Source: a virus. Taken from it: a DNA stretch of 25,991 bases. Under the pieces are notes generated by a model. It had not been told where the DNA came from, made no database searches, and saw nothing but the letters and a program-made list of their open reading frames with translations. The stretch lies in IMG/VR virus record IMGVR_UViG_3300010413_000189, positions 1 to 25,991 of that record. One strand, 5' to 3'. The position numbers were made by a program, and so were the translations under genes. This document shows, piece after piece, positions 1 to 17,070 of the stretch (position 1 is its first letter; the number at the start of each line of letters is the position of its first letter).

Positions 1-1062
1 GGCTGAATTAACTTGTAGCCAGACGGATAGATAAACATTATCAGCCGAATGGACGTGAAAACAATTAGAGACTGCTAGAATATGCAGTTGGCTTAGTGTT
101 GGCGATGTAGCAGTATGGGCATGTAAACAAGGGGAAACAGTTAGAGTTCCAGTTGTTAACAGTACGACATTTTCAGCGGAATGAGCGTGGAAAGTATTTG
201 CTACAACTAAATTATGTTCCTGCGAGAGAGAAACCGATGTAGCTGTATGATTATGCCACGCAGAATCTACTGAGAGTATATGAGTTTGAATAAGAGCAAT
301 ACTCTCAGCAGTATGAGAATGGAGGCAATTCTCAACAATTAAGCCGTGAAGCTGTGTCAGTGCTATTGATTCTGCTGTATGGGAATGGAGACAGTCGGAA
401 ACAACTAAGTTGTGCTCTTGGGTAAGACTAATCGACTCAGCAGTATGGGCGTGGAAGCAATCTGAAACAGATAGGTATTGTTTATGAATAAGCGTCGGGG
501 CAGACGCGTAAGAATCAAATAGAGAGGATGTACTAAGAGTAATTACCCCAGAGATTTCCTCTACAGCAGGAGATGTGGAGCTATGCCCATGTGCGCTATT
601 ATTCGCGGAAAGATTGTGTACTTGGCTTAAACTAATTTCAGATGTGGAATGTGAATGTGAAGCACCTTGTACTGTCAACGGAGTTGAAACTACCTCTTCG
701 ACAGCAGGATTCTCAGCAGTATGCTGATGTTGCCCACTAGCTACAGCTAGATTATGCTGCTGTAGGAGGTCTGGCTTCTCCGATGTAAGGCTGTGTATGC
801 CATTAAAGACAGAGAGGATATGAGTCTGCGTTAGATTTACTGTAGTGGCGGAATGTATATGGATACACGCAGCGATAATAAGCAGCACTACAGCGGTGAC
901 AGATGGACTCGTAGCAGTATGCGTATGTGAACTGGGATTAACTACTAAATTATGAGTCTGCGTTAAATCAAGATTTTCGCTGGTTTGGGAATGGGCAGCG
1001 TTAGCAGCAGTCAAGTTATGTAGCTGTGTTAGAGTTGGATTCTCAGCAGTATGGCTATGAGA
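1..1062 (-). repeat. 22-aa (66-bp) H-x-H repeat array, fibre gene 1
   Basis: Protein-level tandem repeats of 22 residues cover residues 178-531 of the partial gene. The typical unit is x-H-x-H-T-A-E-S-x-x-L-T-Q-x-H-x-L-x-V-x-x-x. Codon choice differs between neighbouring units, so the array is conserved as protein more than as DNA. Confidence 0.9.
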
Positions 1063-1593
1063 ACCACCCTCGGCAACTAACTGAGTCGCACCAGCTGTAT
1101 AATAAACTCGAATCCGAACATGGTCTACATAGGCCGTGCCTCCACCGCTTCCAGCTTGGGCCGCTAGATGTACGCCGAATGTAGAGGCTAGAATGTCAGT
1201 TTCATCAAGACCAGCCCCCCAAGTGTCGGTGCTGCTGCCGTGCGTACGATATGTATCTCCAGTAGGCCATGTCCCTGCTATGGAGCCGTTATTACCTACT
1301 CTACCTGTAGAATCGCACAGTCGGAAATCGTAATCAGAGATTTGGTTGGTTACAGATGCGGCGCACTCTACATCAACCTCAATCCCATCAATCGTAGACC
1401 CAGAGGGTATGTCTGTCTCTGTAAAACCGAATCCAGTACAACGCAACCAATAAGAAGTCTTATTCTTAGAAATTACAGAACTGGCATCCGCATCATTACT
1501 AGTCGTTGCGTTAGTCGGACTAGTCCAATCTGTACCAGAGGGTATAGATTCGGTATCAACAGATGACGGAGATTTCCAATCAGTTACAGACAT
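1..1593 (-). CDS. H-x-H repeat fibre-like protein, partial (C-terminus beyond window)
   Basis: The frame is open for 531 codons from the ATG at 1593 to the left edge of the window, so the C-terminus is missing. Residues 1-168 form a beta-rich domain ending in a Y-V-D-H-V-R-I-R-V-Y-Y strand; the 796-aa upstream protein has a related N-terminal domain. From about residue 178 the protein is a chain of 22-residue repeats with the core H-x-H-[TS]-A-[ET]-[SN], then L-[TS]-Q-x-H-x-L-x-V. About 15 H-x-H-like units are visible, plus one variant unit in which F-D-S-Y-A replaces H-x-H. The ATG directly abuts the TAA of the upstream gene, which suggests translational coupling. By analogy with its paralogues I expect a C-terminal tail-type domain just outside the window. 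A role as a tail fibre or adsorption protein is inferred; the reading frame itself is certain. Confidence 0.85.
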   Translation of the reverse strand, partial: MSVTDWKSPSSVDTESIPSGTDWTSPTNATTSNDADASSVISKNKTSYWLRCTGFGFTETDIPSGSTIDGIEVDVECAASVTNQISDYDFRLCDSTGRVGNNGSIAGTWPTGDTYRTHGSSTDTWGAGLDETDILASTFGVHLAAQAGSGGGTAYVDHVRIRVYYTAGATQLVAEGGSHSHTAENPTLTQLHNLTAANAAHSQTSENLDLTQTHNLVVNPSSHTHTATSPSVTAVVLLIIAACIHIHSATTVNLTQTHILSVFNGIHSLTSEKPDLLQQHNLAVASGQHQHTAENPAVEEVVSTPLTVQGASHSHSTSEISLSQVHNLSANNSAHGHSSTSPAVEEISGVITLSTSSLFDSYASAPTLIHKQYLSVSDCFHAHTAESISLTQEHNLVVSDCLHSHTAESIALTQLHGLIVENCLHSHTAESIALIQTHILSVDSAWHNHTATSVSLSQEHNLVVANTFHAHSAENVVLLTTGTLTVSPCLHAHTATSPTLSQLHILAVSNCFHVHSADNVYLSVWLQVNSA

Positions 1594-3984
1594 TTAATCC
1601 ACATAGATGTCATAGTTACCTTCTGGCAACCTGACATTAGAATCAGCAGGCACATTTGTGTCTACTACAAGTCCATAGAATATGGCAGTTCCACCCGAAG
1701 AAGCAGTGTAACCCGCCAAACCAACCACAGTTCCCCAAGAAGCAGTGGAAGCAGCAAATTCGATTGTCCCAACATTGTAGCTTGCTCCACCAGCAGCAGT
1801 GGCCCACGAATTGTGCTGGGCACGAGCATAACTTCCACCCGACGGCTCTGTCACATTTCCAGTATCGTCAGGTACAGTAGTGCTAGCCGCTATGTAAATA
1901 TTATCTGGTACATTTAGCGTTTGATTTCTGAACAGCCAGTCTAAAACACTATTAACATATTGAGTAAAAAATCCTCCCGCAATGACTGATATTTGTGCTT
2001 CGCCAATGCCAAGACGTGGCACTTCTCCTACTGCAACATAACTCGCAGAATCAAGTCTGCCATGCGCTAAAGCAGTTCCCCCTGTTGAGGCATTCATAAT
2101 TGTCCAATGGGTGACTGTCCCCCAACTAGCTGTGGCCTGTCCAAAAGAGATTGTAGCACTTTGGGCTATGGAACGTGCAGAGGCAGAACCAAAAGCTATA
2201 ACCTGACGAGAGTAGCCACCCCCAACAGGCTCCGAGAAGCCACTGGCATCATCAGTGGGGTCGGCGCTCGATAAAGCTAGATAAACAGTACCGGGTGGTG
2301 AATACACCTCTACCTTCAGGATATGGTTTAGTACCTTCAGCTCCGCATAGTCTGTCAACCCCCCACTAATAAAGACTAATGTTGGACTTGTAGCTGTATG
2401 AGCATGTATAGAATTCGCAACGACTAAAACAACTATAGAAGTTAAATCTACATTCTCCGCAGTATGAGAATGTGACGTATTAGCTACAACTAAGTAATGT
2501 AACTGCGTTAGTGAAGGACTTGTCGCTGTATGAGAATGGAACGTGTCCTCTACTGTCAGAATATGTGTCTGGAGTAACGCAACAGATTCAGCAGTATGTG
2601 CATGAGCAGCATGGGCTACAGTAAGAGTATGAGTTTGGGTAAGGTTTACATTCTCAGCAGTATGCTGATGTAGAGCATTACCTACAACCAAGAACGTGGC
2701 AGTTGAGATTCCTACATTATCGGCTGTATGGCTATGTAGAGTGTTACTTACTGTTAAATTGTGCTCTTGAGAAAGACTGATACTCTCTGCTGTATGTGAA
2801 TGAAGCGCAGGACTAACAGTTAGAATATGCTGTTGAGCAAGAGTTACAGAATCTACTGTGTGGGCGTGACTACAATTCTGAACTATTAAAAGGTGCGCCT
2901 GACTGAGTGTGATACTTTCGGCTGTATGATTGTGATAGGTATCGGAAACAACTAAATAATGTAGTTGAAAGAGGCTAACACTCCCAGCCGTATGAGAATG
3001 GAAAGTAGAATCTACGATTAAAATATGTTGCTGAGTGAGTATGAGTGATTCTACTGTGTGGGCGTGACTACAATTTTGGACAGTCAGGCTGTGAGTTTGA
3101 ACTAAGGTAACATTCTCAGCAGTATGAGTATGAGAGGTATTAGCTACAACTAAATAGTGTAACTGAGTAAGGTCGATATTCTCCGCTGTATGATTATGCA
3201 GACAAGAGCCAACAACAAGGCTTTTAATCTCAGTGAGGCTGACGCTCTCGGCTGTGTGGGCGTGGAGTGCGTCATTAGCAGTGAGGAAATGGGTTTGTGT
3301 AAGAGTTAGGCTCTCAGAAGTGTGGCTATGGAGACAATCATCAGCGACAGCCTCAACGAAAGCCTGTTCAACTAAATCAGGGAGTGAAGCACGAGTATCA
3401 AAAGACGAAGAGGCCGATACCCATAGAAAGGGAGTAATCTCACATACTTCTACTGTATGCGAATGCGAAGCATCATCGACAGATAACTGAATTGTGTAAT
3501 GGATTTTTATTTGGACATAATCAATATAGGCAAAGCGTAAATCTGTAGTGGAATTGTTATATGCCCTAATTTCGACACCGAAACTAGAGTCGTTAACTTC
3601 AGAAGCACTCCAAGAGGCATTCCAAAGGTCGCTGGCCCCACCATAGTCAACCGCTGTAGCAGTTCCAGGCCAAGAGCTACCAGAAGCGTAATCATCACCA
3701 ACAGTGCCAGTACTTTTTCGCAGGTAGACTGAATAGTCTGTGATATCTGAATTATCGCCGTAGCGTTCAATCCTAACTTCAATACCGTTTATTGTCGTCC
3801 CAGAGGCAAGACTAAAGCCGAAGTTAGTGAGACGTAGAATATCTGTCGGACCTTCCTTCTGTATACTCGAAGAAGTATAGTTACCGTCGTCAGCTTTAGC
3901 GTTGTTGTAATTACTCCAAGGGTCGCCCGGAGTCTGGTCAACATTCGCTGCTGTGCCTGGAAAAGTCCAATTTGTTTCAGTCAT
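1594..3984 (-). CDS. H-x-H repeat fibre-like protein (796 aa)
   Basis: Three parts are visible. Residues 1-168 are an N-terminal beta domain (I-N-G-I-E-V-R-I-E-R core, then a F-A-Y-I-D-Y-V-Q-I-K-I strand). Residues 173-540 hold 16 H-x-H units, fifteen of them in an unbroken 22-residue register from about residue 218. Residues 540-796 hold two copies of a tail-type domain with Y-L-A-L-S-S-A-D-P, S-E-P-x-G-G-x-Y and S-W-G-T-V motifs. The C-terminal region matches those of the 289-aa and 1051-aa proteins. In 11 of the 15 regular units a Q-x-H motif follows the H-x-H by 11 residues. The ATG overlaps the stop of the 132-aa gene by one base (TAATG). A trimeric fibre with the repeats as shaft and the C-terminal domains as tip is an inference. 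Confidence 0.85.
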   Translation of the reverse strand: MTETNWTFPGTAANVDQTPGDPWSNYNNAKADDGNYTSSSIQKEGPTDILRLTNFGFSLASGTTINGIEVRIERYGDNSDITDYSVYLRKSTGTVGDDYASGSSWPGTATAVDYGGASDLWNASWSASEVNDSSFGVEIRAYNNSTTDLRFAYIDYVQIKIHYTIQLSVDDASHSHTVEVCEITPFLWVSASSSFDTRASLPDLVEQAFVEAVADDCLHSHTSESLTLTQTHFLTANDALHAHTAESVSLTEIKSLVVGSCLHNHTAENIDLTQLHYLVVANTSHTHTAENVTLVQTHSLTVQNCSHAHTVESLILTQQHILIVDSTFHSHTAGSVSLFQLHYLVVSDTYHNHTAESITLSQAHLLIVQNCSHAHTVDSVTLAQQHILTVSPALHSHTAESISLSQEHNLTVSNTLHSHTADNVGISTATFLVVGNALHQHTAENVNLTQTHTLTVAHAAHAHTAESVALLQTHILTVEDTFHSHTATSPSLTQLHYLVVANTSHSHTAENVDLTSIVVLVVANSIHAHTATSPTLVFISGGLTDYAELKVLNHILKVEVYSPPGTVYLALSSADPTDDASGFSEPVGGGYSRQVIAFGSASARSIAQSATISFGQATASWGTVTHWTIMNASTGGTALAHGRLDSASYVAVGEVPRLGIGEAQISVIAGGFFTQYVNSVLDWLFRNQTLNVPDNIYIAASTTVPDDTGNVTEPSGGSYARAQHNSWATAAGGASYNVGTIEFAASTASWGTVVGLAGYTASSGGTAIFYGLVVDTNVPADSNVRLPEGNYDIYVD
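2368..3468 (-). repeat. 22-aa (66-bp) H-x-H repeat array, fibre gene 2
   Basis: Sixteen H-x-H units occur here, fifteen of them in exact 22-residue register. A 26-bp stretch is identical at 2852-2877 and 3050-3075, exactly 198 bp or three units apart. This points to a fairly recent internal duplication of three units. Confidence 0.9.
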
Positions 3985-4382
3985 TAGACTATACCGTCAA
4001 TAATCTCCTGCTTAATTCTAGGTAGATAAGGCTCAAATCTGTTACGCAAATAAGTTTTTTCAGCACTACTCAAGCTGTCTCTTAAACGTAGAAATATCCT
4101 AGCTAAAACAATTACACTATCTATACGTTCTGCAAAAGCCCGTTTTACAGGGTCTTCCAATTGTTCATGAAATACAACTATTACCCAAGCCGACCATCTG
4201 TTATTTACTTTCTCTCCTTGATAGAACTCTGGGATGTTATTGATTGCTTGTTGGAAAGTAATATTTGGATATTGTAATGTCACTCCATCCCAAAAATCTA
4301 TAATATGTTGACATTCTACCGGATTCACACTCTGTCTTAATACTGCCCAAGCATCAGAGAACAACATAGTTAGAGTTAGCAT
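3984..4382 (-). CDS. hypothetical protein between two fibre genes
   Basis: A 132-aa, mostly alpha-helical-looking protein with no repeat, signal peptide or motif that I recognise. Its stop overlaps the ATG of the 796-aa fibre gene by one base, and its start lies 8 bases after the 1051-aa fibre gene, with AGGTGATGAG as the ribosome site. Its position between two very long fibre-like genes suggests a fibre chaperone or assembly helper, as phages often place such genes next to fibres. That is inference from position only. Confidence 0.75.
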   Translation of the reverse strand: MLTLTMLFSDAWAVLRQSVNPVECQHIIDFWDGVTLQYPNITFQQAINNIPEFYQGEKVNNRWSAWVIVVFHEQLEDPVKRAFAERIDSVIVLARIFLRLRDSLSSAEKTYLRNRFEPYLPRIKQEIIDGIV

Positions 4383-4390
4383 CTCATCAC

Positions 4391-7300
4391 CTAATCTGAA
4401 TCTACAACATAACTACCGTCTGCTATAGCTATAGCATTGCCAGCAGACACAATAACATTGTTAATTGAACTATAGAACATAGGAGTTGCCCCAGAATATC
4501 CAACCAAAGCCACAATCGTCCCCCAAGAAGCTGTAGCTACTGAGAATGAAATCGTTCCACTATTAGAGCTAGAGGCTAACGTAGCTGTTCTCCAAGTATT
4601 ATGAGTGACTCTACTATATCCTCCGCCATTTGGCTCTGTTACATTACCAGTATCATTTGGTTCTGTCGTGCTAGCAGCTAAATAAATATCTCCTGGTTGT
4701 GCTAATGCTTGTCCCCTAAAAAGCCAGTCTAAAACATCATTAGCGTATGCAGTAAAGAATCCTCCAGACTCAACTGATATAGCGACTTCCCCAGTTCCAA
4801 CATTCGGTATAGTCCCTGTAAGAACGTAGGTCGCCGCAGAGAATGGGCCATACGCCATAACAGTTCCACCAGTTAGGGTGTCCATGATTGCCCAGTGAGT
4901 AATAGTTCCAAGATTACCCGTAGCCTGAGTAAACGCTATCGTAGCACTTTGAGAAATCACTCTAGCTGAAGCTGTCGAGAAACTTATTACTTCTCTGGCA
5001 TAATTACCACCTGATGGTTCGCTTAGACCGCTTCCAGGCTCTCCTGGGTCAGCCAAAGAAAGCGCAAGATAAACAGTTGAGGGGGGAGTATAGGATTCGA
5101 CCTTGAGAATATGGTCTAAAAGTTCAAGTTCGATTGTATCAGATAGCGAACCTTGTAAGGTGAGCTGTATATTCGCTGCACTATGTACGTGCGTAGCACC
5201 ATCGATAACAAGTACGAAAATAACTGTGAGCGAGATAGGCTCTGCTGTATGTATGTGAGAACAACCAGAAACAGCTAAATTATGTTCCTGTGTTAGTGTA
5301 GGAGATTCTGCTGTGTGAGAATGTTTAGCGTCTGCTACGGCTATAGGTAAAGCATTGACTTCTAAACGTACACTAAAAGCTGGATAGGCAGAAGTAGGAC
5401 CATTAGCTGGAACTGATGCTATATTTACTAGACTTTTAAAGGCAATTGGAGTGTCTTGAGTTACTGTATCTGAAGTCTCGGTATCTGCTACTTCTACAGA
5501 TAAAGAACTGTCTTGTCCATCATCCCGCAGAGAAAATGTATATCCCTTACCTACACCTGGAACATAACTTAAATAAGCCCCCAAAGACTTTGCTGTGATA
5601 TCAGCAGGCATCACAGCAAGAATTTTAGTCTCAGTTGTGTGCCAGTAGTTGTAAAATGAACCAGCTTGGAGTGGACGAAATGCTGTACTTGAAGCGTTGG
5701 TTAGTCCGTTTATGCTACAGACAATGACATCGCCAGAATTTGAACGTACAGAGATACCCCATTGGCATCTAGAAGTAGTAGCAGCACCACTAGGAACACA
5801 AATTAGGCGAAGAATGTCGCCTTCTGTTATAGGCACTTCGCCTGTCGTGGTTTTTGTGCCATTCTCAGAATCGGAATAGGAAACTTGGAGAGCAGTTTCA
5901 GTTACATAGTTTTTCTCTAGACTAATTGTTCTCGATTCACCCGCCCCAGGAGCTATCTCAAGATTAAAACTTAACGCAACTACTTTACCCGAAAAGCCAG
6001 GAGGTACAACCAATTCCTGACCGTTAGTATAATAACCACCCAATCCAGCTAAAGAATAATAATAAGTATTTACTCCGTCTAGCCCATATAGACGACTACC
6101 CCCCATCATCGGGAATTCGCTATTGCTAGATTCAAAGACTATCCCATAATGAACAACAGAAGCGACAGCCGTTCCACCCGATACAACTCCAATGACTGAA
6201 ACTCTTTGTCCAGCCGAAATCGCCACATCGGTAGTGATGGTTTTAAATCCACTTTCAGTTGGGCCAAAGGAAACTGATAGGTCTGTAGAGACTTCGTTTA
6301 TTCTAAAGGTAAATGTACGAGTGGCGACACCACCCGGAGCGATAGGTAGATATACAGAGAGACGCTTAACTGTGCCGTCTGTGGCACATAAAGTGCTAAG
6401 GAAGTAGTCATTGGAGCCGTATGGATTCATTGAGCCGTGCGCAGGCAATCCATCAAAGCCAACGGCTGTACGCAAGTCGTATCCAATAGTGCCGCAAAGC
6501 CATACGGCTTGTATTTTACGAGTTAAGTCTACGCTACTGACTGAATGTAGATGTGCTGAATCGTCTACAGATAAAAAATGTACCTGAGAAAGAGTAATAT
6601 TATCGCCTAAATGTTGGTGAAGAGTATCCCCAACATTTAAATTATGCTCTTGTGCGAGAGTAATACTTGCTACTGTATGCGAATGGATACAGACAGATAT
6701 ACTAAGAATATGGGTCTGTGCTAATGATATTGGTTGAGCTAAGTGAAGATGAATACAATTCTCAGTACTCAACTGATGCTGCTGAATAAGAACTATGTTG
6801 TCTGCTATTTGGTTGTGTAGAGTATTATTAACTAATAAATTATGTACTTGTAAAAGCTGTACACTTTGACATATATGCCCATGTAGCGCATTGCTAATAC
6901 TGAGTAGATGTCCTTGGGTCAATATAGCACTATCAACAGTATGCTGATGTAAGGTACTAGCTATATTCAGAACATGGAGTACAGAGAGGGAAAGTTTCTC
7001 TGATGTGTGGGAGTGTACAGCAGGAGAGGTTGTTAAATAATGCTTCTGGGTAAGACTTAATGATTCTGATACGTGTGAATGGTCTGAAGAAGAAACTGTT
7101 AGAAAAGTTGCTGTTGAAAGTGTTGGAGACTGACTGGTTGTATAATGAATGCAATTAGCAATGGTCAGTCCAATCTTCTCTATTAGGTCAATATTGTCAG
7201 CAGCATGGGTGTGTTGAGTACCATTAACTGTTAGCAAATATATCACTACAAAAGTAGGCGAATCAGAAGTGTGATTGTGCGATGTATTAGCAACAGTAAG

Positions 7301-7546
7301 AGGGATAATCACTACAAGAGTGAGAGAATCAGCGACATGACTATGTAGTGTATTATCGGTGGTAATAGATACAGAAGGTTGTTGCGTTAAGACAGGGGAT
7401 GGGGCCACTGTATCAAAAATTGATGTGGCCGAAACATAATGTCCAGTATACTCAGTTATAACCGCGCTTTCAGCCGTATGTGAATGTAGCGCATGACTAA
7501 TAACCAGGCTAGACTTGGCAGATAAGAGTAGGCTACTTCTTAACAT
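4391..7546 (-). CDS. H-x-H repeat fibre-like protein with internal beta-sandwich insert (1051 aa)
   Basis: The largest protein in the window. It opens with about 14 22-residue H-x-H units. Some are degenerate, such as H-Y-T-T and H-N-Q in place of H-x-H. The array is interrupted by about 390 residues that look like three successive beta-sandwich domains, each with an A-P-G/V-P-G turn followed by a strand like R-T-F-T-F and later a P-S-G-like turn. Three more H-x-H units follow, and then the doubled tail-type domain shared with the 289-aa and 796-aa proteins (D-H-I-L-K-V, S-T-V-Y-L-A-L-S, S-E-P-S-G-G-N-Y-A-R). Start and upstream stop overlap by one base (TAATG). Function as a tail fibre or adsorption protein is inferred from domain content and position. 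Confidence 0.85.
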   Translation of the reverse strand: MLRSSLLLSAKSSLVISHALHSHTAESAVITEYTGHYVSATSIFDTVAPSPVLTQQPSVSITTDNTLHSHVADSLTLVVIIPLTVANTSHNHTSDSPTFVVIYLLTVNGTQHTHAADNIDLIEKIGLTIANCIHYTTSQSPTLSTATFLTVSSSDHSHVSESLSLTQKHYLTTSPAVHSHTSEKLSLSVLHVLNIASTLHQHTVDSAILTQGHLLSISNALHGHICQSVQLLQVHNLLVNNTLHNQIADNIVLIQQHQLSTENCIHLHLAQPISLAQTHILSISVCIHSHTVASITLAQEHNLNVGDTLHQHLGDNITLSQVHFLSVDDSAHLHSVSSVDLTRKIQAVWLCGTIGYDLRTAVGFDGLPAHGSMNPYGSNDYFLSTLCATDGTVKRLSVYLPIAPGGVATRTFTFRINEVSTDLSVSFGPTESGFKTITTDVAISAGQRVSVIGVVSGGTAVASVVHYGIVFESSNSEFPMMGGSRLYGLDGVNTYYYSLAGLGGYYTNGQELVVPPGFSGKVVALSFNLEIAPGAGESRTISLEKNYVTETALQVSYSDSENGTKTTTGEVPITEGDILRLICVPSGAATTSRCQWGISVRSNSGDVIVCSINGLTNASSTAFRPLQAGSFYNYWHTTETKILAVMPADITAKSLGAYLSYVPGVGKGYTFSLRDDGQDSSLSVEVADTETSDTVTQDTPIAFKSLVNIASVPANGPTSAYPAFSVRLEVNALPIAVADAKHSHTAESPTLTQEHNLAVSGCSHIHTAEPISLTVIFVLVIDGATHVHSAANIQLTLQGSLSDTIELELLDHILKVESYTPPSTVYLALSLADPGEPGSGLSEPSGGNYAREVISFSTASARVISQSATIAFTQATGNLGTITHWAIMDTLTGGTVMAYGPFSAATYVLTGTIPNVGTGEVAISVESGGFFTAYANDVLDWLFRGQALAQPGDIYLAASTTEPNDTGNVTEPNGGGYSRVTHNTWRTATLASSSNSGTISFSVATASWGTIVALVGYSGATPMFYSSINNVIVSAGNAIAIADGSYVVDSD
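5150..5340 (-). repeat. H-x-H repeat array, fibre gene 3, three-unit block
   Basis: Three H-x-H units (K-H-S-H-T-A-E-S, S-H-I-H-T-A-E-P, T-H-V-H-S-A-A-N) follow the beta-sandwich insert and lead into the C-terminal tail-type domain. They show that the insert splits one ancestral array. Confidence 0.85.
6520..7497 (-). repeat. H-x-H repeat array, fibre gene 3, N-terminal block
   Basis: About 14 units of roughly 22 residues with H-x-H cores, more diverged than in the other two genes. One unit near 7396-7430 has F-D-T-V-A in place of H-x-H. Confidence 0.85.
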
Positions 7547-8415
7547 TAGTTAGATACAACCTTGTAATTGCTGTTGAGAATACCCAAAAAACTATCGGCC
7601 TCAAAAAAAGTAGGCGTTATAGAACTGTAAAACATTTCTGTTCCACCTGTTGGAGAATCATAAATTGCTAGTGCGACAACTGTCCCCCAAGAAGCTGTAG
7701 CCATCACAGAAAAAATAGCCCCAGAATTTGTACACGACCCTAGAGCAGCAGTATTCCAAGAATCGTGTTGGATTCTAGTATATCCACCCTCAGTGGGTTC
7801 GGTCACATTACCATCATCATCAGGGAGTGATGTACTTAACGCCAAATAGATACCCGATGGCTGTGTAAGACTTTGACCTCTAAAAAGCCAGTCAAGTATA
7901 TTATTAGCATATAGAGTAAAAAAACCTCCTTGTAATACAGTTACAGATATTTGCTCGGTATCTACACTCAATGTAGTACCTGTGTCAACATAAGTTGCAG
8001 AGGAAAACTGCCCACAGGCCATCATATTCCCACCAGTAAGTGTATCCATCAGAGCCCAATGAGTAACAGTTCCCCAAGAGGCTGTGGAAGTATTAAACAC
8101 TACTGAGCCACTTTGAGTGATTGTTCGTGTGGAAGCTGTAGAGAATGTAATAGCCTTTCTGCCATAAGCTCCATTGGAAGGTTCAGAGAGCCCACTTGCA
8201 TCATCGGTAGGGTCTGCCTGCGATAATGCTAAATAAACGGTACTGGGTGGAGAATACGACCCAATTCCCAAGATATGGTCTAGCATCTCTAGCTCAATAA
8301 AGTCAGATAGAACATGTCTCTGACCGATAGCCGGAGAACTTGAGCTAAAAAAATGAGAGCCATCTGCAACAATCAAAGCTACAGAGGCTCTTGATAGTAC
8401 AACGAGCTTTCTCAT
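7546..8415 (-). CDS. fibre-like paralogue lacking the repeat array (289 aa)
   Basis: The protein consists mainly of two copies of the tail-type domain that ends the 796-aa and 1051-aa proteins. Copy one, about residues 38-165, has S-T-V-Y-L-A-L-S, A-D-P-T-D-D-A-S-G and S-W-G-T-V-T-H-W. Copy two, about 166-289, has L-D-W-L-F-R-G-Q, I-Y-L-A-L-S and S-W-G-T-V-V-A-L. Residues 10-36 look like one decayed H-x-H unit (A-D-G-S-H-F-F-S-S-S-S-P then Q-R-H-V-L). It is therefore the short form of the family, with the shaft absent. Translation is coupled to the 1051-aa gene by a one-base overlap. A virion tail or baseplate role is likely but unproven. Confidence 0.85.
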   Translation of the reverse strand: MRKLVVLSRASVALIVADGSHFFSSSSPAIGQRHVLSDFIELEMLDHILGIGSYSPPSTVYLALSQADPTDDASGLSEPSNGAYGRKAITFSTASTRTITQSGSVVFNTSTASWGTVTHWALMDTLTGGNMMACGQFSSATYVDTGTTLSVDTEQISVTVLQGGFFTLYANNILDWLFRGQSLTQPSGIYLALSTSLPDDDGNVTEPTEGGYTRIQHDSWNTAALGSCTNSGAIFSVMATASWGTVVALAIYDSPTGGTEMFYSSITPTFFEADSFLGILNSNYKVVSN

Positions 8416-8755: not shown

Positions 8756-9583
8756 TTACCCAAAAAGGGTCATATGAAAATTGTCCAGTCTATTACCTGA
8801 ATCTGTCTCCTCTGACTGGATTCTAACTGCGACTCTAGAACCTGCTGGAATAGAAAGCGGCAAGCTGATAACTCTAGGACCCCTGATATCGTACACTTCA
8901 GTATGGAAGAAGGTATAATCAGGTAGTATAACCTCCTCATTACCTGCTGCTCCTATACCAATATCAAGTAAACCTATAGCACTAGCGATAGCCCCACCAA
9001 TCGGATAGGTGTACCAAACAATTACCCATTTAGCACTAAAGGAAGTGCTACTAGATAATTCGACCCATGCACCTTTTGTATTGGGAGTGGCTCCAGGGTC
9101 TACTTCTTGTCCACGACTCACCGAAGTATCGGCACCTATTGTTTCAGTCCTGTGGAACCCAGGAAAGTCAAAGCTACTAGGAAAACAAGTTATGAAACCA
9201 TTAAGGGAATTGGCAGTAGCGTTTGATTGAGTCCTCATAGCTAATCTAGTCCCTGCACCTAGCGCTAGAGGCACATAGAAAGCATTAGATACATTCCCTT
9301 GGTCTTCAATACTCCCTCCTCCATTTGCTAGAACGACTGTCTCATTACCACTCGCACCTATACCAAGGTCCCACATCTGTCTAGCATCGGCTTCCTTTAA
9401 AAACATACAAAAACCAGACATATCCATATCTAACGCAGCACAAATTTCTTGCCAGTCGCCTTTTGTATGCTCTGTAGTTGAATCCGACTGAGGCGTAAAA
9501 AGTCTAAACGGACTAGTGGCTGGGGTTGCATACGGATAGAGATAGAGCTTAGATACATCGTAATGGTATGGGAAAATCGGCAT
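8756..9583 (-). CDS. two-domain beta protein, copy B of the duplicated module
   Basis: A 275-aa protein paralogous to the 279-aa product encoded at 9883-10722. It has an internal twofold repeat. Each half has H/N-T-K-G-x-W-x-E followed by D-[LI]-G-I-G-A-[SA]-G-N-E and then I/L-x-x-G-[ST]-R-[LV]-A-[MV]-R-x-Q-S. The start overlaps the upstream 96-aa gene by one base. The repeated beta-strand pattern and its position next to fibre genes suggest an adsorption or tail-tip protein. I do not recognise a named family. Confidence 0.85.
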   Translation of the reverse strand: MPIFPYHYDVSKLYLYPYATPATSPFRLFTPQSDSTTEHTKGDWQEICAALDMDMSGFCMFLKEADARQMWDLGIGASGNETVVLANGGGSIEDQGNVSNAFYVPLALGAGTRLAMRTQSNATANSLNGFITCFPSSFDFPGFHRTETIGADTSVSRGQEVDPGATPNTKGAWVELSSSTSFSAKWVIVWYTYPIGGAIASAIGLLDIGIGAAGNEEVILPDYTFFHTEVYDIRGPRVISLPLSIPAGSRVAVRIQSEETDSGNRLDNFHMTLFG

Positions 9584-9873
9584 TAGCTTCTCTCCCGATA
9601 AAGTTTCTTTAAGATTAATAGTAAAACTCTATCCCGTTTTGCACTAGTCAAATTGCCGCCACTTATAAGTGACAAGGCTTCAGCTAAATCAGGATTTGAA
9701 GGTTCATTTCTATCAACAAATGCCAAGATACTAGGGTCCCATATTTTATTGGTTCCACTCTTTGGATTCGACTGATATTCTTTATAATCTAAATCTGGAG
9801 ACAGTTTCCCCAAAACGGTGCCTGTGCTTACTAATTTACCAGTCGCTTTTTCATAGACCGCATACCAAGCCAT
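9583..9873 (-). CDS. small protein, copy B of the duplicated module
   Basis: A 96-aa protein whose first half (W-Y-A-V-Y-E-K-A-T-G, L-V-S-T-G-T-V-L-G, Y-K-E-Y) is nearly the same as in the 97-aa product of 10723-11016. The C-terminal half is helical and charged. The W-D-x-x-x-x-x-F-V stretch resembles small phage tail-associated proteins that describe a residue-by-residue beta hairpin. Function is unknown. It forms a translationally coupled pair with the 275-aa gene. Confidence 0.8.
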   Translation of the reverse strand: MAWYAVYEKATGKLVSTGTVLGKLSPDLDYKEYQSNPKSGTNKIWDPSILAFVDRNEPSNPDLAEALSLISGGNLTSAKRDRVLLLILKKLYRERS

Positions 9874-9882
9874 CTTAACTCC

Positions 9883-10722
9883 CTATCCATACGCCAGCAT
9901 ATGAACATAGATATTTCTAGTATCAGTCACAATCGTTGTACTTTGAGCTCTGGCCGCAATTCTAGTTCCAACTGGAATAGAGAATGGCATCTCAAAAACA
10001 CGCGGCCCCCAGTGACGATTATAGTAATAACTGTTACCGAATCTATTCAGAAACATATACAAATCAGGTAGTATAATCTCTTCATTTCCAGCCGCGCCTA
10101 TCGCAATATCCACTAGCCAGCTATTATCGTCTTCAGTACCACCCACTAGACGGGCCAAGAATAAATTTATCCATTTACAGTCCATTTCTAGACTGCTCGT
10201 TATCTCTGTATAGGCACCTTTAGTATTTGCAGTCGTACCCGGATTGACCAGTTGTCCACTAGAATTACTTGTGTCTGCTCCAGCAGTGGCCGCTCTGCCA
10301 AAACCACTAAAACCAAAATTTGCAGGTATAAAATAAAAAGTCCAAAAGCTGTCAGAGCTGGCAGAATTAGCTTGCGACCTGACAGCTACTCGAGCACCTT
10401 TAGGAATTGCTATGGGATAAAAATGTATGTTAGGGCGATATAAATCCTGATTAGCTTGTCCACCAGCATTAGCCAAAATTACTTGTTCGTTGCCTGATGC
10501 GCCAATACCCAAATCCCATAAGACGCGTTCCTGCCAAGTTGCACTATGTACTAAAACACCGCAACAGTTTACATCTAAAGCGGAGCAAACCTCAACCCAA
10601 GAACCTTTAGTGTGTACAGACCCACCAGCAGTTACAGTCAGCTCTCGCTTTGATGTGCCAGCCACAGCAGCAGGATAAGCATACAGTCCCGAACTATCAA
10701 AGTGGTGTGGAAATGCTGGCAT
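9883..10722 (-). CDS. two-domain beta protein, copy A of the duplicated module
   Basis: A 279-aa protein paralogous to the 275-aa product at 8756-9583. Both begin M-P-x-F-P-x-H-x-D and both contain the H-T-K-G, L-W-D-L-G-I-G-A-S-G-N-E and I-A-I-G-A-A-G-N-E-E-I-I-L-P-D landmarks. The two halves of the protein are related to each other, so the window holds four copies of this domain. The ATG directly abuts the stop of the 97-aa gene. Likely a virion surface or tail-tip component, by position only. Confidence 0.85.
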   Translation of the reverse strand: MPAFPHHFDSSGLYAYPAAVAGTSKRELTVTAGGSVHTKGSWVEVCSALDVNCCGVLVHSATWQERVLWDLGIGASGNEQVILANAGGQANQDLYRPNIHFYPIAIPKGARVAVRSQANSASSDSFWTFYFIPANFGFSGFGRAATAGADTSNSSGQLVNPGTTANTKGAYTEITSSLEMDCKWINLFLARLVGGTEDDNSWLVDIAIGAAGNEEIILPDLYMFLNRFGNSYYYNRHWGPRVFEMPFSIPVGTRIAARAQSTTIVTDTRNIYVHMLAYG

Positions 10723-11016
10723 CTAACTTACCTCATATGCCCGCTTCAGAAGTAGCGTCAGAGCCTTATTTATCTCCGTACTAGTCCAAGTTTCTTTAGA
10801 AATCAATACCTCAGCATCTACCAAGTTCTGGTCTACAACAGGCTCACTTGGGTCTGGCTTTGGTACAAAGTCCATCATCGCCTCGTCCCACATGTAATCT
10901 AGCTCTAATTGATTATCAGCATATTCTTTATATGCCAAACCTTCTGGCAGAGAACCAAGGACAGTACCAGTACTGACTAACCTACCAGTAGCCTTTTCAT
11001 AAACTGCGTACCACAT
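10723..11016 (-). CDS. small protein, copy A of the duplicated module
   Basis: A 97-aa protein with the same N-terminal block as the 96-aa protein at 9583-9873 (W-Y-A-V-Y-E-K-A-T-G and L-V-S-T-G-T-V-L-G) and a diverged acidic, helical C-terminal half. It is the first gene of the duplicated two-gene unit. No named family is recognised. Confidence 0.8.
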   Translation of the reverse strand: MWYAVYEKATGRLVSTGTVLGSLPEGLAYKEYADNQLELDYMWDEAMMDFVPKPDPSEPVVDQNLVDAEVLISKETWTSTEINKALTLLLKRAYEVS

Positions 11017-11228: not shown

Positions 11229-11603
11229 TTATGTAGGATCACCAATCTCCATCTTCCAAGAAGGAATATTCACCTTATTGCCAGATGTTAGAGACTGAGT
11301 AGTACAAGTTGTCACGTAAAGCAGTCGAGTGCCATCCACAAGAGCAACGTGCTGAGCACTCCCAGAGCTATCAACACTCACAGAGTTGAACGCATTAACG
11401 GTTAACTTTCTTCCACCAGAAGAGCCACTGGTAGGCCCAGTGAAATTGGCGGAAGTAAAAGCAGTAGCCGCTAGAGCGTACGAAGTAATCGCATGTGAGC
11501 GAGTAGTGGGCTCAGTAGAGCAAACAGTAATTTGCCCAGAAGTCGCGCTCTTGATGATGGCCCAAGCGCCATCTAAAACATCATTATGTACACTCTTACC
11601 CAT
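11229..11603 (-). CDS. conserved phage structural-type protein
   Basis: A 124-aa protein starting M-G-K-S-V-H-N-D-V-L-D, with C-S-T-E-P-T-T-R, S-G-G-R-K-L-T-V and V-N-I-P-S-W-K-M-E-I landmarks and a mainly beta character. I recognise this as a widespread but unnamed environmental phage protein found beside adaptor and tail genes. It overlaps the upstream 276-aa gene by 8 bases. A tail or neck component is likely. Confidence 0.8.
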   Translation of the reverse strand: MGKSVHNDVLDGAWAIIKSATSGQITVCSTEPTTRSHAITSYALAATAFTSANFTGPTSGSSGGRKLTVNAFNSVSVDSSGSAQHVALVDGTRLLYVTTCTTQSLTSGNKVNIPSWKMEIGDPT

Positions 11604-12582: not shown

Positions 12583-13080
12583 CTACGCCCTCACTAGTTC
12601 AACCATAAAGGCCGATTTAAGATAGGGTTTAAGCAACCTATCAATATACGTATATTCTGGAACATCGCGTTTGCCACCGCGATCATACTCAATCTCGATT
12701 ACGTCTACCTTTTCTCGTACGATATTTCCCATCTCGGATAAGTCCGGCGCAGGATCGCCACCAGTAAGATAGCGCAAAGCGAGTTCGGCCTGTGCTTGCC
12801 TAATAGCCACCGGCACGACTGTAGCGGAGACATAGTACTGGTTTCTATCAATGACGTTGCGACGCGGCCATTCTAAAGACTGTGTCGAGTCCGCCTTGAT
12901 ACCTCGCCAAGGAAGAGTCTCCATATAACGAGTAGCTCGGATAAGGCACGACTCTAGAGAATCGTTTGATCCAGTCCAAGTTATAATACCCATCTCAACA
13001 AAATACGAGTTTGCACTAGCCAACGACAGGTAACTGTTAGCTGAACTTAGAGAAGTGCCGTCTTCTACGATTATAGTCAC
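12583..13080 (-). CDS. DnaT-like head-tail adaptor protein
   Basis: A 165-aa protein with the pattern of the phage DnaT-like family. The N-terminal strand I-I-V-E-D-G-T-S-L is followed by [14 protein letters not shown] and W-P-R-R-N. A helix with [11 protein letters not shown] comes next. In tailed phages these proteins usually sit between the capsid and tail genes and are thought to act as head-tail connectors, which matches the position here. The family name reflects sequence similarity only and does not imply replication function. Confidence 0.8.
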
Positions 13081-13220: not shown

Positions 13221-13424
13221 CTACTTAGTCTTCTTCATGCTCGGATATTTACGATAAACAGCGGCCCTGACTTTCTTCTTCTCCTCAGGTGTCCCGTATT
13301 GTGAGACACGTGCAAGGGCGTTTCTCGCGTGGGCCTTATCATGGATAGGGTACTTACGTTTAGAAGGTATAGCAAAATTCGACGACTTAATATGCTTACG
13401 TCCCTTAGAAGTTAATTTAGCCAT
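13221..13424 (-). CDS. small basic protein (DUF6582-like)
   Basis: A 67-aa basic protein with the recognisable block F-A-I-P-S-K-R-K-Y-P-I-H-D-K-A-H-A-R-N-A and then G-T-P-E-E-K-K-K-V-R-A-A-V. This block occurs in DUF6582-type phage proteins, where it is often fused to or near prohead protease or capsid genes. The gene overlaps the acetyltransferase gene by 8 bases. Function unknown. Confidence 0.8.
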   Translation of the reverse strand: MAKLTSKGRKHIKSSNFAIPSKRKYPIHDKAHARNALARVSQYGTPEEKKKVRAAVYRKYPSMKKTK

Positions 13425-13923
13425 CTTGGTTCCCCATATTGGATAGGTCTCGCTTAATCCACTGGTAGGACACGATCCTAGCCGGTACTCCCCACGCCGT
13501 CATATTGTCAGGGACATCTCGGGTAACAACGCTTCCAGCTCCAACAAAAGCATTCTCCCCGATTGTCACACCACAAATTATAGTAGCATTAGCTCCAATC
13601 GCGGCTCCACGTCTAATCAGTGTCTGTTCAAATCTGCCTCTACGATATGTACGCGGACGTTTTACATTTGTAAACGTGGCGTGCGGAGCGATAAAAACAT
13701 CATCCTCAATAATCACACCACTGTAAACGTATACGCCGTTTTGTATACGCACATTGTTACCGATTATGGCCCCAGTTGCCACTTGACAATAGCTACCGAT
13801 CATACAGTTTTTACCGATGCGTGCGCCCTCTTGAATATGGCTAAAGTGCCACACAGAAGAATTATCACCGATGACGCACCCAGGTTCTACCAACGCGTGA
13901 CGACTTATAAAGATATTACCCAT
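13417..13923 (-). CDS. wbpD: WbpD-like UDP-sugar N-acetyltransferase (left-handed beta-helix)
   Basis: The 168-aa protein has hexapeptide repeats typical of left-handed beta-helix acyltransferases (V-I-G-D, R-I-G-K, I-I-G-N-N-V, A-I-G-A-N, T-I-G-E-N). It also carries the W-H-F-S-H-I, F-T-N-V, R-R-G-A-A-I-G-A-N-A-T-I and G-V-P-A-R-I landmarks of the WbpD/WlbB group. Known members use acetyl-CoA to acetylate the 3-amino group of a UDP-2-acetamido-3-aminoglucuronate during O-antigen sugar synthesis. The length is slightly below that of bacterial WbpD (about 190 aa). It overlaps the upstream gene by 8 bases. The same operon encodes a WbpB-like dehydrogenase, which supports the pathway call. The exact substrate is inferred. 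Confidence 0.85.
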   Translation of the reverse strand: MGNIFISRHALVEPGCVIGDNSSVWHFSHIQEGARIGKNCMIGSYCQVATGAIIGNNVRIQNGVYVYSGVIIEDDVFIAPHATFTNVKRPRTYRRGRFEQTLIRRGAAIGANATIICGVTIGENAFVGAGSVVTRDVPDNMTAWGVPARIVSYQWIKRDLSNMGNQDG

Positions 13924-14140
13924 CGAGCCCCCTAGTCTGCAAAAACCCGTCCTGTTCTATTCGTCTAACAGCTTCTCTAAGTTTGCGATTACCGATCATA
14001 CCATAAACTGCCCAACTCACAGCGCTAGCAATATCATCTGCTAACTCTTGGTCGATATTACCTAGCAGGGAATCGTCAATTGCAAGTTCACCCGTAATCC
14101 CATTCACGTCTGTAATATAGATTTTAATCTGTTCTGGCAT
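13916..14140 (-). CDS. hypothetical protein (74 aa)
   Basis: A short acidic protein with an N-terminal I-K-I-Y-I-T-D-V-N-G strand and a helical middle (E-L-A-D-D-I-A-S-A-V-S-W-A-V). No family recognised. It overlaps the acetyltransferase start, so the two are likely co-translated. Confidence 0.65.
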   Translation of the reverse strand: MPEQIKIYITDVNGITGELAIDDSLLGNIDQELADDIASAVSWAVYGMIGNRKLREAVRRIEQDGFLQTRGLDG

Positions 14141-14150
14141 AGATTGACCT

Positions 14151-14534
14151 CTATCCTTTAACTTTTTTTAATAATTCAATTATATCTTGTTGTTGATCAA
14201 TAAGCCGCTTAAGTAGCGACTTAATGTCGTCGTCGTCGGGTATAGGCTCAACAGGCTCACGTAGGGCATACTCCCTAGCTTTAGCCTCAAAAATCTCCCA
14301 CTCCTCTCTAATATCACTCCAGATGAGACAGTAGTCGTCGTGCGATATTTGCTCTGAGGACTTGAGTGCAAGTAAAAAATACTCGAACTCGTCCAGTTCG
14401 GCCTCAAAATCGTTGCTCTCTATGGAGTTGTCCTCGCCCTCGCGCAAAAAGGATTCACGCGAGTTCCTCCAACTCCTAGCCATGTTTTTGAGGTCCCCCT
14501 TTAAAAGTTCTACTGAGTTATCATTTTTTTTCAT
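14151..14534 (-). CDS. hypothetical acidic helical protein (127 aa)
   Basis: A strongly acidic, probably helical protein with E-A-E-L-D-E-F-E-Y-F-L and a C-terminal segment (S-L-L-K-R-L-I-D-Q-Q-Q-D-I-I-E-L-L-K) that could form a coiled coil. Start overlaps the upstream zinc-ribbon gene by 14 bases. No known family. Confidence 0.65.
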   Translation of the reverse strand: MKKNDNSVELLKGDLKNMARSWRNSRESFLREGEDNSIESNDFEAELDEFEYFLLALKSSEQISHDDYCLIWSDIREEWEIFEAKAREYALREPVEPIPDDDDIKSLLKRLIDQQQDIIELLKKVKG

Positions 14535-14871
14535 AACGTTTCGAGTATGTTGACATGTCCCAGAACCAGTTTTGCTTATGTCTGGGCACCCAAGGGTAGA
14601 CCATCAGGAACTTCACTGACTTGAATGATCCACACGATGGACACACAACAAACCTGTGGAAAACTCCTCCTCCATCGTCCGGACCATCTGAGTCCCCCCA
14701 AGGTTGTACCCAACGCTCAGGAGTTCCCTCGGGTGTTTTACACTCTCCACACTCAAAAGCCAACAAACTCACATCAGCGTGAAACTTCGCAAAGTGAGCA
14801 TAATCCCCTAGGTATCCGTTCTTTAGATCAATAAACGGAGGAGTTCTTACATTCTCCGCAGTCTCTCGCAT
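14521..14871 (-). CDS. zinc-ribbon protein of unknown function (116 aa)
   Basis: Two cysteine pairs (C-G-E-C near residue 41 and C-P-S-C-G near residue 77) make a likely zinc ribbon. The ends of the protein are aromatic and basic (W-V-P-R-H-K-Q-N-W-F-W-D-M). The gene overlaps the end of the WbpB-like gene by 25 bases, an unusually long overlap, and sits inside the sugar operon. No catalytic motif seen; a regulatory or binding role is possible. Confidence 0.7.
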   Translation of the reverse strand: MRETAENVRTPPFIDLKNGYLGDYAHFAKFHADVSLLAFECGECKTPEGTPERWVQPWGDSDGPDDGGGVFHRFVVCPSCGSFKSVKFLMVYPWVPRHKQNWFWDMSTYSKRYEKK

Positions 14872-15683
14872 AATTTAATACTCGGTGCAGCGTCGTCAAG
14901 TGTAAAACCTTGACCGGCCATGATTTGTTTATAGGACTCAGTATGGAGATTCGTAAAACCCCCAGTAAAGTCTATCCTTTCTCCGTCGATAACGATCTCA
15001 CGCTTAACGCTATTAAAAGGCTCTACAGATAAATCAAAACTAATTTGAGCCTTAGGTGTTTCAAATTCCCCAATCACCCGATAAGGCTTTCGCGTTGATA
15101 ACCTAACTCGTCTGAACTCATCACCAAAAAACCATAACAGTAAATCGAACATGTGAACACCAATGTTCGTTTCTAGTCCCCCAGATTTTCGCACATCGGC
15201 CTTCCATGTTTGGTTATACCATCTCCCTCTCGGAGTATGGTACAACAGATGCACCTTATGTCCAGATGTAATTTGATCTCTAAGCGAGATTAATTCTGGT
15301 TTTAGTCTGGATTGTAGTATCGTAAAGACTTTTCTGCCGGTTTCAGCTTCACAGTCTTTTAAACGACAGATATCGTTATAAGTCAATACAACAGGTTTCT
15401 CACAGATTACGTTTGCTCTGTTGCGTAGTCCAGCAAGGCACTGTTCAAAATGAACATGATTGGGTGAACAGATAACAAAATAGTCAGGCTGGACATATAG
15501 ACATTCCTTAGAAAACGACTTAAAGTCTTTAAAGAACCCACACTCCATACTGTGAGCGTCTAAGAATCCGACAGAGTCGAACGGATCATACCCGACGACT
15601 AACTTCCCTTCACACTCCTCAATCGCGCGCAAGTGACGAGGGAATACATAACCAGCAATCCCTGTTGCCGCGAATGTCAACAT
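14847..15683 (-). CDS. wbpB: WbpB-like sugar-nucleotide dehydrogenase (Gfo/Idh/MocA family)
   Basis: The 278-aa protein has an N-terminal NAD-binding motif (T-G-I-A-G-Y-V-F-P-R-H-L, residues 7-18), the E-K-P motif at 95-97 with the catalytic-type lysine, and G-G-L-E-T-N-I-G-V-H-M-F-D at 168-180. The A-G-Y-V-x-P-R-H-L, Y-D-P-x-D-S-V and R-G-R-W-Y patterns point to the WbpB/WlbA subgroup. That group oxidises the 3-position of UDP-N-acetylglucosaminuronate before amination. It is shorter than bacterial WbpB (about 315 aa). No aminotransferase (WbpE) or WbpA is in the window, so the pathway would need host enzymes or genes elsewhere in the genome. Confidence 0.85.
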   Translation of the reverse strand: MLTFAATGIAGYVFPRHLRAIEECEGKLVVGYDPFDSVGFLDAHSMECGFFKDFKSFSKECLYVQPDYFVICSPNHVHFEQCLAGLRNRANVICEKPVVLTYNDICRLKDCEAETGRKVFTILQSRLKPELISLRDQITSGHKVHLLYHTPRGRWYNQTWKADVRKSGGLETNIGVHMFDLLLWFFGDEFRRVRLSTRKPYRVIGEFETPKAQISFDLSVEPFNSVKREIVIDGERIDFTGGFTNLHTESYKQIMAGQGFTLDDAAPSIKLCERLRRM

Positions 15684-15880
15684 AACAATTTATAGTGCTC
15701 AATATGATTATAGACAAATTCACGTCGTTTCATCCATGCTTCTATGACGCGAGTAACTGAGTCCATGAGGTCATGGACATCATCTTCATCATAACGTTCT
15801 TTCGCCATCGCAACCGAACCACATATTCCGTGGTTATTTTCAAAGTCAACTACGTAGTTTTTGTCTTCATCAATGATCAA
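15677..15880 (-). CDS. hypothetical protein (67 aa)
   Basis: A small acidic N-terminal, helical C-terminal protein with overlaps on both sides (4 bases with the glycosyltransferase, 7 with the WbpB-like gene). Tight coupling supports a real gene. No family recognised. Confidence 0.65.
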   Translation of the reverse strand: MIIDEDKNYVVDFENNHGICGSVAMAKERYDEDDVHDLMDSVTRVIEAWMKRREFVYNHIEHYKLLC

Positions 15881-17070
15881 ACCGCCACCTCTCTAATGTC
15901 CAGTGCCGAGTACGCTTGAACATCACTTAGGCTCGGAACTTCTTGCAAAAGATGGGGTAACCCAATCACACCTAAGTTCATTTTAAGTTCGCTTTTGAAG
16001 TCAGGACTCAGCGTATCTATCCGACTCTTGACAGCAGTCCAACACTTCATCCCTTCCTCTAAACTCGCCATCGACAGCCTGTAGAGGTTCAAGGTCAAAA
16101 TCTCCTCGTTGATAGAGAAGTAGAACTGCCCCCCCTTCCTAGCAGGGTTCTCGGTCATGTCTCTGAATCCGGCAATGTATCGTCTGGCACCTTCGGCCAT
16201 GAGAGCGTTATTGTGAGTCATTGCCCCTTGGTCGCTCATAGCACTAGCTAAATCAGGGTCTGTTGGACGTGAGGCCATCGCCTCTCTCAGAAGCTCGGCG
16301 GCCTTGTCTAGGTCCCCTGTCTCTTGGTAACATTTGACCATGGTGAAGTAGATAGTTGTATTAAAACGGTCTGGGGGGATGCTGTCTTTGGCAGCCAAAT
16401 ACTTCTCTCCCCAAGCCTTGCTTTTTTCCACATGGCCGTGGTGCCCATATAACTGACACAGATAAAACGGAACATCAAAGTTGCTAGGATTGTCCCGCAT
16501 CTCCTTATATAACAGCCCCTTAGTTCGCCAGAACTTCTTCTTCATCTGTTCTGGAGAGAGATCATACCCATGATGACTCAAAGAAAACCAGTGATTTAAA
16601 ACGCACGCTCCTTCGAACCTAGGCTGGTTATGAATCATATTTTGATACTTAACGGTGCCTTTTTTAAACATCCGAGCAGAGTTACAACTCATGGCACAAC
16701 GACCCTGTTGAAAGTCGTTTACCATGACAGCCGACGCCTTAAACCCAGCCCCATCAACTTCATCAGTCAACCACTTAATGAAGCCGGATTTTTTATACAT
16801 CGGCGACTTAACTACTCGTTCGTCAGCGTCAATAACTAAACACCAGTCTCCTGTAGCGTACTGAAGAGACTGGTTACGATGTAAAGAAAAATTTTGCTGC
16901 CAAGGATGGTGATACACCTTAGCTCCAAACAGTTCAGCAATCTCAACTGTATTATCACTTGATCCTGTGTCAACGACAATAATCTCGTCAACAACGTCGG
17001 CCAAGGACTCTAGCACATGCGGCATATTCTTGGCCTCGTCTTTGACCATCATACATGCTGATACTTTCAA
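15877..17070 (-). CDS. family-2 glycosyltransferase with TPR-like C-terminus
   Basis: The N-terminal GT-A fold is clear. It begins K-V-S-A-C-M-M-V-K-D-E, continues with V-V-D-T-G-S-S-D-N-T (residues 32-41) and R-N-Q-S-L, and has the metal and nucleotide-sugar motif D-A-D-E at 81-84. Residues about 200-290 have helical repeats of TPR type (K-C-Y-Q-E-T-G-D-L-D-K-A-A-E-L-L). This domain pair occurs in bacterial and phage glycosyltransferases of the WaaE/KdtX-like type. It would transfer a sugar in the cytoplasm, possibly one made with the WbpB/WbpD-like enzymes. It starts 28 bases after the 98-aa gene. The acceptor, whether host glycan or virion protein, is unknown. Confidence 0.85.
   Translation of the reverse strand: MKVSACMMVKDEAKNMPHVLESLADVVDEIIVVDTGSSDNTVEIAELFGAKVYHHPWQQNFSLHRNQSLQYATGDWCLVIDADERVVKSPMYKKSGFIKWLTDEVDGAGFKASAVMVNDFQQGRCAMSCNSARMFKKGTVKYQNMIHNQPRFEGACVLNHWFSLSHHGYDLSPEQMKKKFWRTKGLLYKEMRDNPSNFDVPFYLCQLYGHHGHVEKSKAWGEKYLAAKDSIPPDRFNTTIYFTMVKCYQETGDLDKAAELLREAMASRPTDPDLASAMSDQGAMTHNNALMAEGARRYIAGFRDMTENPARKGGQFYFSINEEILTLNLYRLSMASLEEGMKCWTAVKSRIDTLSPDFKSELKMNLGVIGLPHLLQEVPSLSDVQAYSALDIREVAV

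Follow-up and report, generated by a model that had tools for sequence, protein, structure and literature searches.

Arrays of a 22-residue histidine repeat in an uncultured virus as probable rod segments of phage neck or tail appendages

What a phage might build from dozens of copies of a short histidine-rich unit, and where in the virion such a product would sit, is the question raised by the 25,991-base uncultured virus record IMGVR_UViG_3300010413_000189 (positions 1 to 25,991, hereafter the window), in which three genes, here designated A, B and D, carry arrays of a 22-residue unit containing the motif H-x-H. We consider it probable, at roughly 0.62, that these arrays make up the rod (shaft) portions of appendages on the virion, of which collar or neck whiskers or fibres, seated at the head-tail connector or the tail adaptor, are the likeliest kind. 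The original prediction, made from the DNA of the window, had described a family of fibre-like genes with possibly metal-bound, trimeric shafts; its observation of the repeats is confirmed and its fibre reading is supported and can be sharpened to a neck/tail appendage module, while metal binding and trimerisation are unproven.

By profile, 48 units were counted in the three genes, all 48 having His at position 8 and 44 of them also at position 10, with the consensus L-T-V-x-N-[ACT]-x-H-x-H-T-A-E-[SN]-[VIP]-x-L-T-Q-x-H-x. The predicted figure of about 48 repeats is thus right for units, the number of strict H-x-H motifs being 44 (13 in A, 16 in the 796-amino acid (aa) protein B, 15 in the 1051-aa protein D and 0 in the 289-aa protein E). 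The 22-residue spacing was equally upheld, as 8, 14 and 10 H-x-H pairs in A, B and D, respectively, are spaced by exactly 22 residues, a number that never exceeded 1 when each protein was shuffled 2,000 times, and the second Q-x-H proposed to follow 11 residues after H-x-H in B is present in 11 units. The proposed core H-x-H-T-A-E is indeed the consensus, although the entire string occurs just 16 times in the window. In agreement with the reasoning of the original prediction, three of the four genes proposed as a family carry arrays, whereas the fourth, E (7546–8415, minus strand), holds one degenerate unit (HFFSSSSPAIGQRH) besides two Gp80 domains, and no H-x-H. Cys occupies position 6 (C-x-H-x-H) in 14 of the 48 units (29%). 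One variant unit per array carries F-D instead of H-x-H, namely LSTSSLFDSYASAPTL (481–546), VSASSSFDTRASLPDL (3355–3420) and VSATSIFDTVAPSPVL (7370–7441), and a regex search did not find this variant in the arrays of other phages. These F-D units and the C-terminal Gp80 pairs had been overlooked in the original prediction.

All three array genes are encoded on the minus strand. Gene A (1–1593; 531+ aa, truncated at its 3′ end where the window stops) comprises an N-terminal domain common to B followed by 15 units at residues 172–527 (13–1080), of which 13 have a strict H-x-H, with a spacer or variant unit at residues 350–373. Gene B (1594–3984) encodes the N-terminal domain, 1 + 15 units at residues 167–541 (2362–3486), including the F-D variant unit at residues 189–210, and two C-terminal Gp80 domains (1597–2361). 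Gene D (4391–7546) encodes a main array of 14 units at residues 14–346 (6509–7507), a 388-aa non-repeat region, a short second array of 3 units at residues 735–800 (5147–5344) and, finally, two Gp80 domains (4394–5146).

The tandem Gp80 pair that is C-terminal in B and D, and that makes up nearly all of E, connects the arrays to proteins of known virion location. Expectation (E) values for PF23140 (Gp80) are 2e-52, 4e-48 and 4e-57 for B, D and E, and the bit scores of 177, 164 and 193 lie well over the curated cut-off of 27, establishing family membership; the same proteins match phrog_240 at E 2e-37, 2e-26 and 4e-39. FelixO1 ORF55 also belongs to phrog_240 (E 6e-29), and two solved 110-aa chains are its close homologues, one from the connector of Bas63 (9mt4, E 1.5e-69) and the other from the neck of Sf14 (9c39_K, E 6e-65). 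Sf14 whiskers are formed by gp30 and gp31 dimers bound by the adaptor gp37 (PMC11821841), and 9c39 chain K is probably the whisker protein gp31, judging by length and by gene order (portal, 166 aa, 110 aa in FelixO1). Phage GP4 gp80 is present in 8JOU, entitled ‘Fiber I and fiber-tail-adaptor of phage GP4’, of which chain 8jou_a is matched by profile at E 8e-6. GP4 fibre I (8JOU), Sf14 9C39_K and Bas63 9MT4 therefore represent the same family as the C-termini of B and D; the Gp80 members examined, whether solved or from isolates, are devoid of an H-x-H array, in contrast to the window, where the tandem pair stands behind one.

The repeat is not restricted to the window. A DNA pattern of the unit matched 98 IMG/VR stretches among 2.9 million contigs, which together with Microcystis phage Mae-JY22 yielded 103 open reading frames (ORFs) and 1,210 units, with 995 spacings of exactly 22 residues. 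Among the loci of other phages, designated here L followed by a number, L209 has an ORF of 44 units. Among 63 pattern matches in bacterial genome contigs, nine contigs bear arrays and the others look like chance. Mae-JY22, whose array gene occupies 39942–40619 of its record and the stretch immediately upstream, was the only isolate found with an array when a consensus array was used as tblastn query, and a close-relative search with the 796-aa protein returned nothing among viral contigs. In profile searches with the window and other array proteins, none of the Pfam or PHROG families covered the repeat, and sequence comparison with solved chains gave no match to the array. Even with E values up to 1 allowed, the Phage tail repeat (PTR, PF12789) did not match the window arrays (2/72 other array proteins match it somewhere). 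As no paper describing the repeat was found in the open-access literature searched, the expectation that it occurs in environmental phages without a described function is borne out.

Within these proteins the array is usually located near the C-terminus, the C-flank being mostly 20–60 residues, and it is often followed by a 9–11-residue tail repeat, R-[VA]-[LF]-x-V-x-x-E-[ST] (for example in L106, L049 and L087), which is possibly a cap or a second rod segment. A Laminin_G_3 lectin-like domain is present in 7/72 array proteins. In L176 (4851–5804), a relative of the N-terminal domain is apparently split by an intein/Hint-like insert (AGTLISAPYGEIPIEEL...HNL).

Gp80 domains are rare in the array genes of other phages, but a 124-aa gene of phrog_3758 adjoins these genes; its counterpart in the window lies at 11229–11603 (minus strand). 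This partner gene was found at 75/110 array loci when short fragments are counted in, within 3 kilobases (kb) at 18 of the 21 loci that have 2.5 kb on both sides, and in 7/9 of the bacterial-genome contigs with arrays. Conversely, with the partner protein alone as query, an array was present within 5 kb at 62/80 loci, even though the unit pattern is as scarce as 98 stretches in 2.9 million contigs. The AlphaFold model of the partner has a predicted local distance difference test score (pLDDT) of 96.4, and this predicted fold is that of a whisker/fibre adaptor, its top structural matches being neck and fibre proteins: 9c39_K (Z 9.9, root-mean-square deviation (rmsd) 2.6 over 105), followed by 9mt4_K (Z 9.6), 9rkv_A of the 7-7-1 tail fibres (Z 8.2) and 8jou_a of GP4 Fiber I (Z 6.5). 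Its BFVD matches include tail-collar fibre proteins. Direct profile comparison of the partner with Gp80 is weak (17.5%); however, the two families, phrog_3758 and phrog_240, are joined by Octadecabacter DB virus 2, whose partner-like gp9 scores with phrog_240 at E 9e-8 and lies in the order tail tubular gp7, Gp80-type gp8, gp9, tailspike gp10 and tail fibre gp12. Partner and Gp80-type genes are also adjacent in L178.

At loci without an array, other large proteins of surface type come after the partner. In L177, a relative of the window with a 95%-identical partner, a 107-aa ORF comes next and then a different array gene with another N-terminal domain, an exchange that would be expected of a rapidly exchanged host-contact module. 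A 71–76-aa protein (MKxIExLxxI...GxxYxxGE...GWA) is encoded downstream of the array gene at 13 loci (e.g. L010:756–968 and L077:1254–1481), often between it and the partner gene.

Based on the Gp80 fusions in the window together with the linkage and fold of the phrog_3758 partner, the repeat appears to be fused to, or encoded beside, appendage bases. The fibre-like character originally assigned to the genes thus finds support in C-terminal domains shared with GP4 fibre I and the Sf14/Bas63 whisker homologue, and in the near-constant linkage to a fold-related adaptor gene. In such an appendage the Gp80/phrog_240 domains (the C-termini of B and D, and nearly all of E) would form the seat, while the N-terminal domain of A and B would lie at the outer end and probably serve in binding. 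The head-tail adaptor gene Ad1 (phrog_477; 12583–13080, minus strand) puts the array module at the neck genes, and a neck location would be preferred to a tail location. Neck appendages with carbohydrate-binding modules are known from Anabaena phage A-1(L), which has bead-chain neck fibres (PMC10966104), and from the neck passage structures of 936 phages (PMC6669499); no sequence link between these and the arrays was found, and A-1(L) employs many copies of the gp81 trimer as opposed to the repeat array described here. Several points weigh against the proposed placement. The array proteins are known here from their genes, from which their place in the virion is deduced; the identity of 9c39 chain K as gp31 is itself deduced; phrog_240/Gp80 members are known from the neck of Sf14 as well as from the tail of the podophage GP4, so that family membership fits either place; the window has no tail genes that could settle morphology; and the structural model of the array, considered below, is of low confidence.

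What kind of rod the arrays might form was approached through the conservation of the unit. Over 1,064 in-register slots, His is found at position 8 in 98% and at position 10 in 83%, with Gln at position 10 in 13%, Gln at 19 in 76% and His at 21 in 69%, while position 10 is never Asp or Cys and is Glu once. Conservation of H8 is not a product of the search, because 36 of the 37 units scoring under the detection threshold (counted by eye) retain it. The window units are old copies, with a mean pairwise DNA identity of 0.44–0.51 and different codons in 33–79% of comparisons at identical conserved residues; since they diverge to this extent and yet keep H8 in 48/48, the histidines are maintained by strong selection rather than by recent copying. 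Low-entropy positions over the 1,210 units are 1, 3, 6, 8, 10, 12, 15, 17, 19 and 21, a pattern of beta alternation with phase shifts at 4–5 and 13–14. Charged residues account for 68% at position 5 and 81% at position 13 but 0% at positions 1, 3, 6, 8, 10, 12, 15 and 17, and Lys and Arg together make up 0.4% of all array residues. H8 and H10 lie on the same alternating face as A6 and A12, and H21 with L1, V3 and L17, the variable residues being on the opposite face, and position 9, between the two histidines, is small. As they share a face with near-invariant leucines, the histidines are most likely buried, on the uncharged side.

The 22-residue unit would accordingly be expected to form beta strands with two turns, at positions 4–5 and 13–14, and with L1, V3, A6, H8, H/Q10, A12, V/P15, L17, Q19 and H21 pointing inwards, giving a hydrophobic core with stacked His/Gln layers. 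Within the rod reading, and not in competition with it, the structural version we favour, at slightly less than even odds, is a single-chain right-handed parallel beta-helix with one unit per coil and buried, hydrogen-bonded His/Gln ladders that need no metal and recall the Asn ladders known from pectate lyases; with two Gp80 domains in tandem, one chain would then be able to form a dimeric base. The AlphaFold monomer model of ten units is such a helix by alignment (Z 16.2, rmsd 2.7 over 194/220 residues), its partners being pectate lyases, alginate epimerases and phage tailspikes, which share the length of about 22 residues per coil. The NosD profile matches A and B at E 1e-3 (19 bits, below the gathering cut-off of 23.6) and 4/72 other array proteins (best 2.4e-6), and indels of −2 to +3 sit at positions 19–22 of units without Q-x-H, as in solenoid loops. 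The exchange of His for Gln, the absence of Asp and Cys and the single Glu at position 10 would fit a side-chain hydrogen-bond ladder better than a metal site. However, the model has a mean pLDDT of 62.7 and a predicted template modelling score (pTM) of 0.51, with its five versions ranging from 28.5 to 62.7; Foldseek gave no match for it at E below ~0.08, no beta-helix family match in the window is above its cut-off, and NosD proteins, pectate lyases and tailspikes differ in that the arrays have a His-rich core and no recognised catalytic site. A beta-helix may, moreover, be the default outcome of monomer prediction for beta repeats, and the model, from a monomer run only, is to be taken as a lean rather than a result. 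A depolymerase role for such a helix was considered and dropped, since the repeats have no cluster of conserved acidic residues apart from those at turn positions 5 and 13.

A beta-helix rises by 4.8 Å per coil. Fifteen units would thus span some 7 nm as a single-chain helix and some 14 nm as a triple helix, and the ‘very long’ fibre originally envisaged would, at an estimated 7–15 nm, not be exceptional.

That three chains form the shaft, their H-x-H (and Q-x-H) motifs meeting on the axis to bind iron or another metal in each unit, in the manner of a T4 gp37 needle made regular or of a triple-stranded beta-helix in which every 11 residues form a layer, appears unlikely to us. The degree of conservation of H8 and H10 and their position on the uncharged face would suit this arrangement, as would the exact 11-residue pseudo-repeat of H-x-H and Q-x-H, which may favour a rung-by-rung triple helix. 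The small-x-H-x-H-[TSA] motif also resembles G-x-H-x-H-[ST] of the T4 gp37 receptor-binding tip, where H-x-H sites hold iron, and the near-invariant, putatively buried H8 and the C-x-H-x-H of 29% of window units lend metal some plausibility. In T4 gp37, however, the motifs form a short needle with irregular spacings (9/9/14/14/32/37), as opposed to a strict 22 in up to 44 units per protein, interspersed with Q-x-H, and Gly occupies position 6 in just 6% of units. Furthermore, Gln replaces His at position 10 in 13% of slots, 85% of units in the L049 and L072 arrays are H-x-Q, and the AlphaFold monomer closes as a single-chain helix, which would stack the histidines as ladders instead of bringing those of three chains together, although a monomer run is compatible with a trimer. 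The whisker proteins of Sf14 are dimeric (PMC11821841). On balance, a hydrogen-bond ladder appears somewhat more likely than metal sites. An iron-binding fibre has been proposed for gp12 of Alteromonas phage R22Y (PMC11705849), which has four H-x-H motifs 22 residues apart, yet its repeat, read directly, is HxHxIEDIxGLxxxLxxK and lacks the LTV...TLTQxH strands, and it was rejected as a published case of the array repeat. We tentatively advance, while regarding it as doubtful, a broader formulation in which the arrays would constitute a new class of appendage rod, a single-chain or triple beta-helix with a core ladder of 15–44 buried histidines alternating with Gln/His layers, either an axial metal chain or hydrogen-bonded imidazoles, stiffening the rod or switching with pH or metal.

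It seems a little less likely still than the trimeric metal-bound shaft that the arrays serve as capsid decoration or head fibres instead of neck or tail appendages. Genes downstream of the arrays in other phages are mostly those for portal, head-tail adaptor, maturation protease, head morphogenesis and (major) head proteins, and PHROG files both phrog_240 and phrog_3758 under head and packaging; the solved phrog_240 members, however, are neck whisker and fibre proteins, and the gene order of Octadecabacter DB virus 2 points to a tail adaptor/spike slot. An outward lattice of histidines binding metal ions, mineral or a host surface, to which the regular spacing across 15–44 units and the small residue at position 9 could be fitted, is improbable given that H8/H10 and H21 share their faces with A6, A12, L1, V3 and L17 and the variable residues occupy the other.

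As regards the remainder of the window, its main genes are all on the minus strand and comprise a terminase end, portal, scaffold, major head protein, Ad1, small structural genes and the array genes, between which gene C (3984–4382, minus strand; 132 aa) matches no Pfam or PHROG family. An apparent tandem duplication of a two-gene cassette occupies 8756–11016, with 275/279-aa paralogues (8756–9583 and 9883–10722) each accompanied by a ~97-aa companion (9583–9873 and 10723–11016). Between the head and adaptor genes (13417–17070), sequence reading indicates apparent hexapeptide acyltransferase, Gfo/Idh-type oxidoreductase and glycosyltransferase genes, also found in L177 and suggestive of surface-sugar chemistry. 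A trimethylamine methyltransferase (MTTB) homologue (20921–22111; PF06253, E 4e-19) lies amid the phage head genes.

A widespread but undescribed repeat is now tied to a structurally solved family of neck and fibre base proteins, by virtue of which its place in the virion becomes testable. The arrays are predicted to offer a natural protein rod with a dense and regular internal histidine ladder. If bound to metal, they would rank with the phage structures richest in metal for their size, and would matter for the suggestion of iron carriage by phages in water (PMC11705849); if metal-free, they would give a beta rod whose core is unusually polar.

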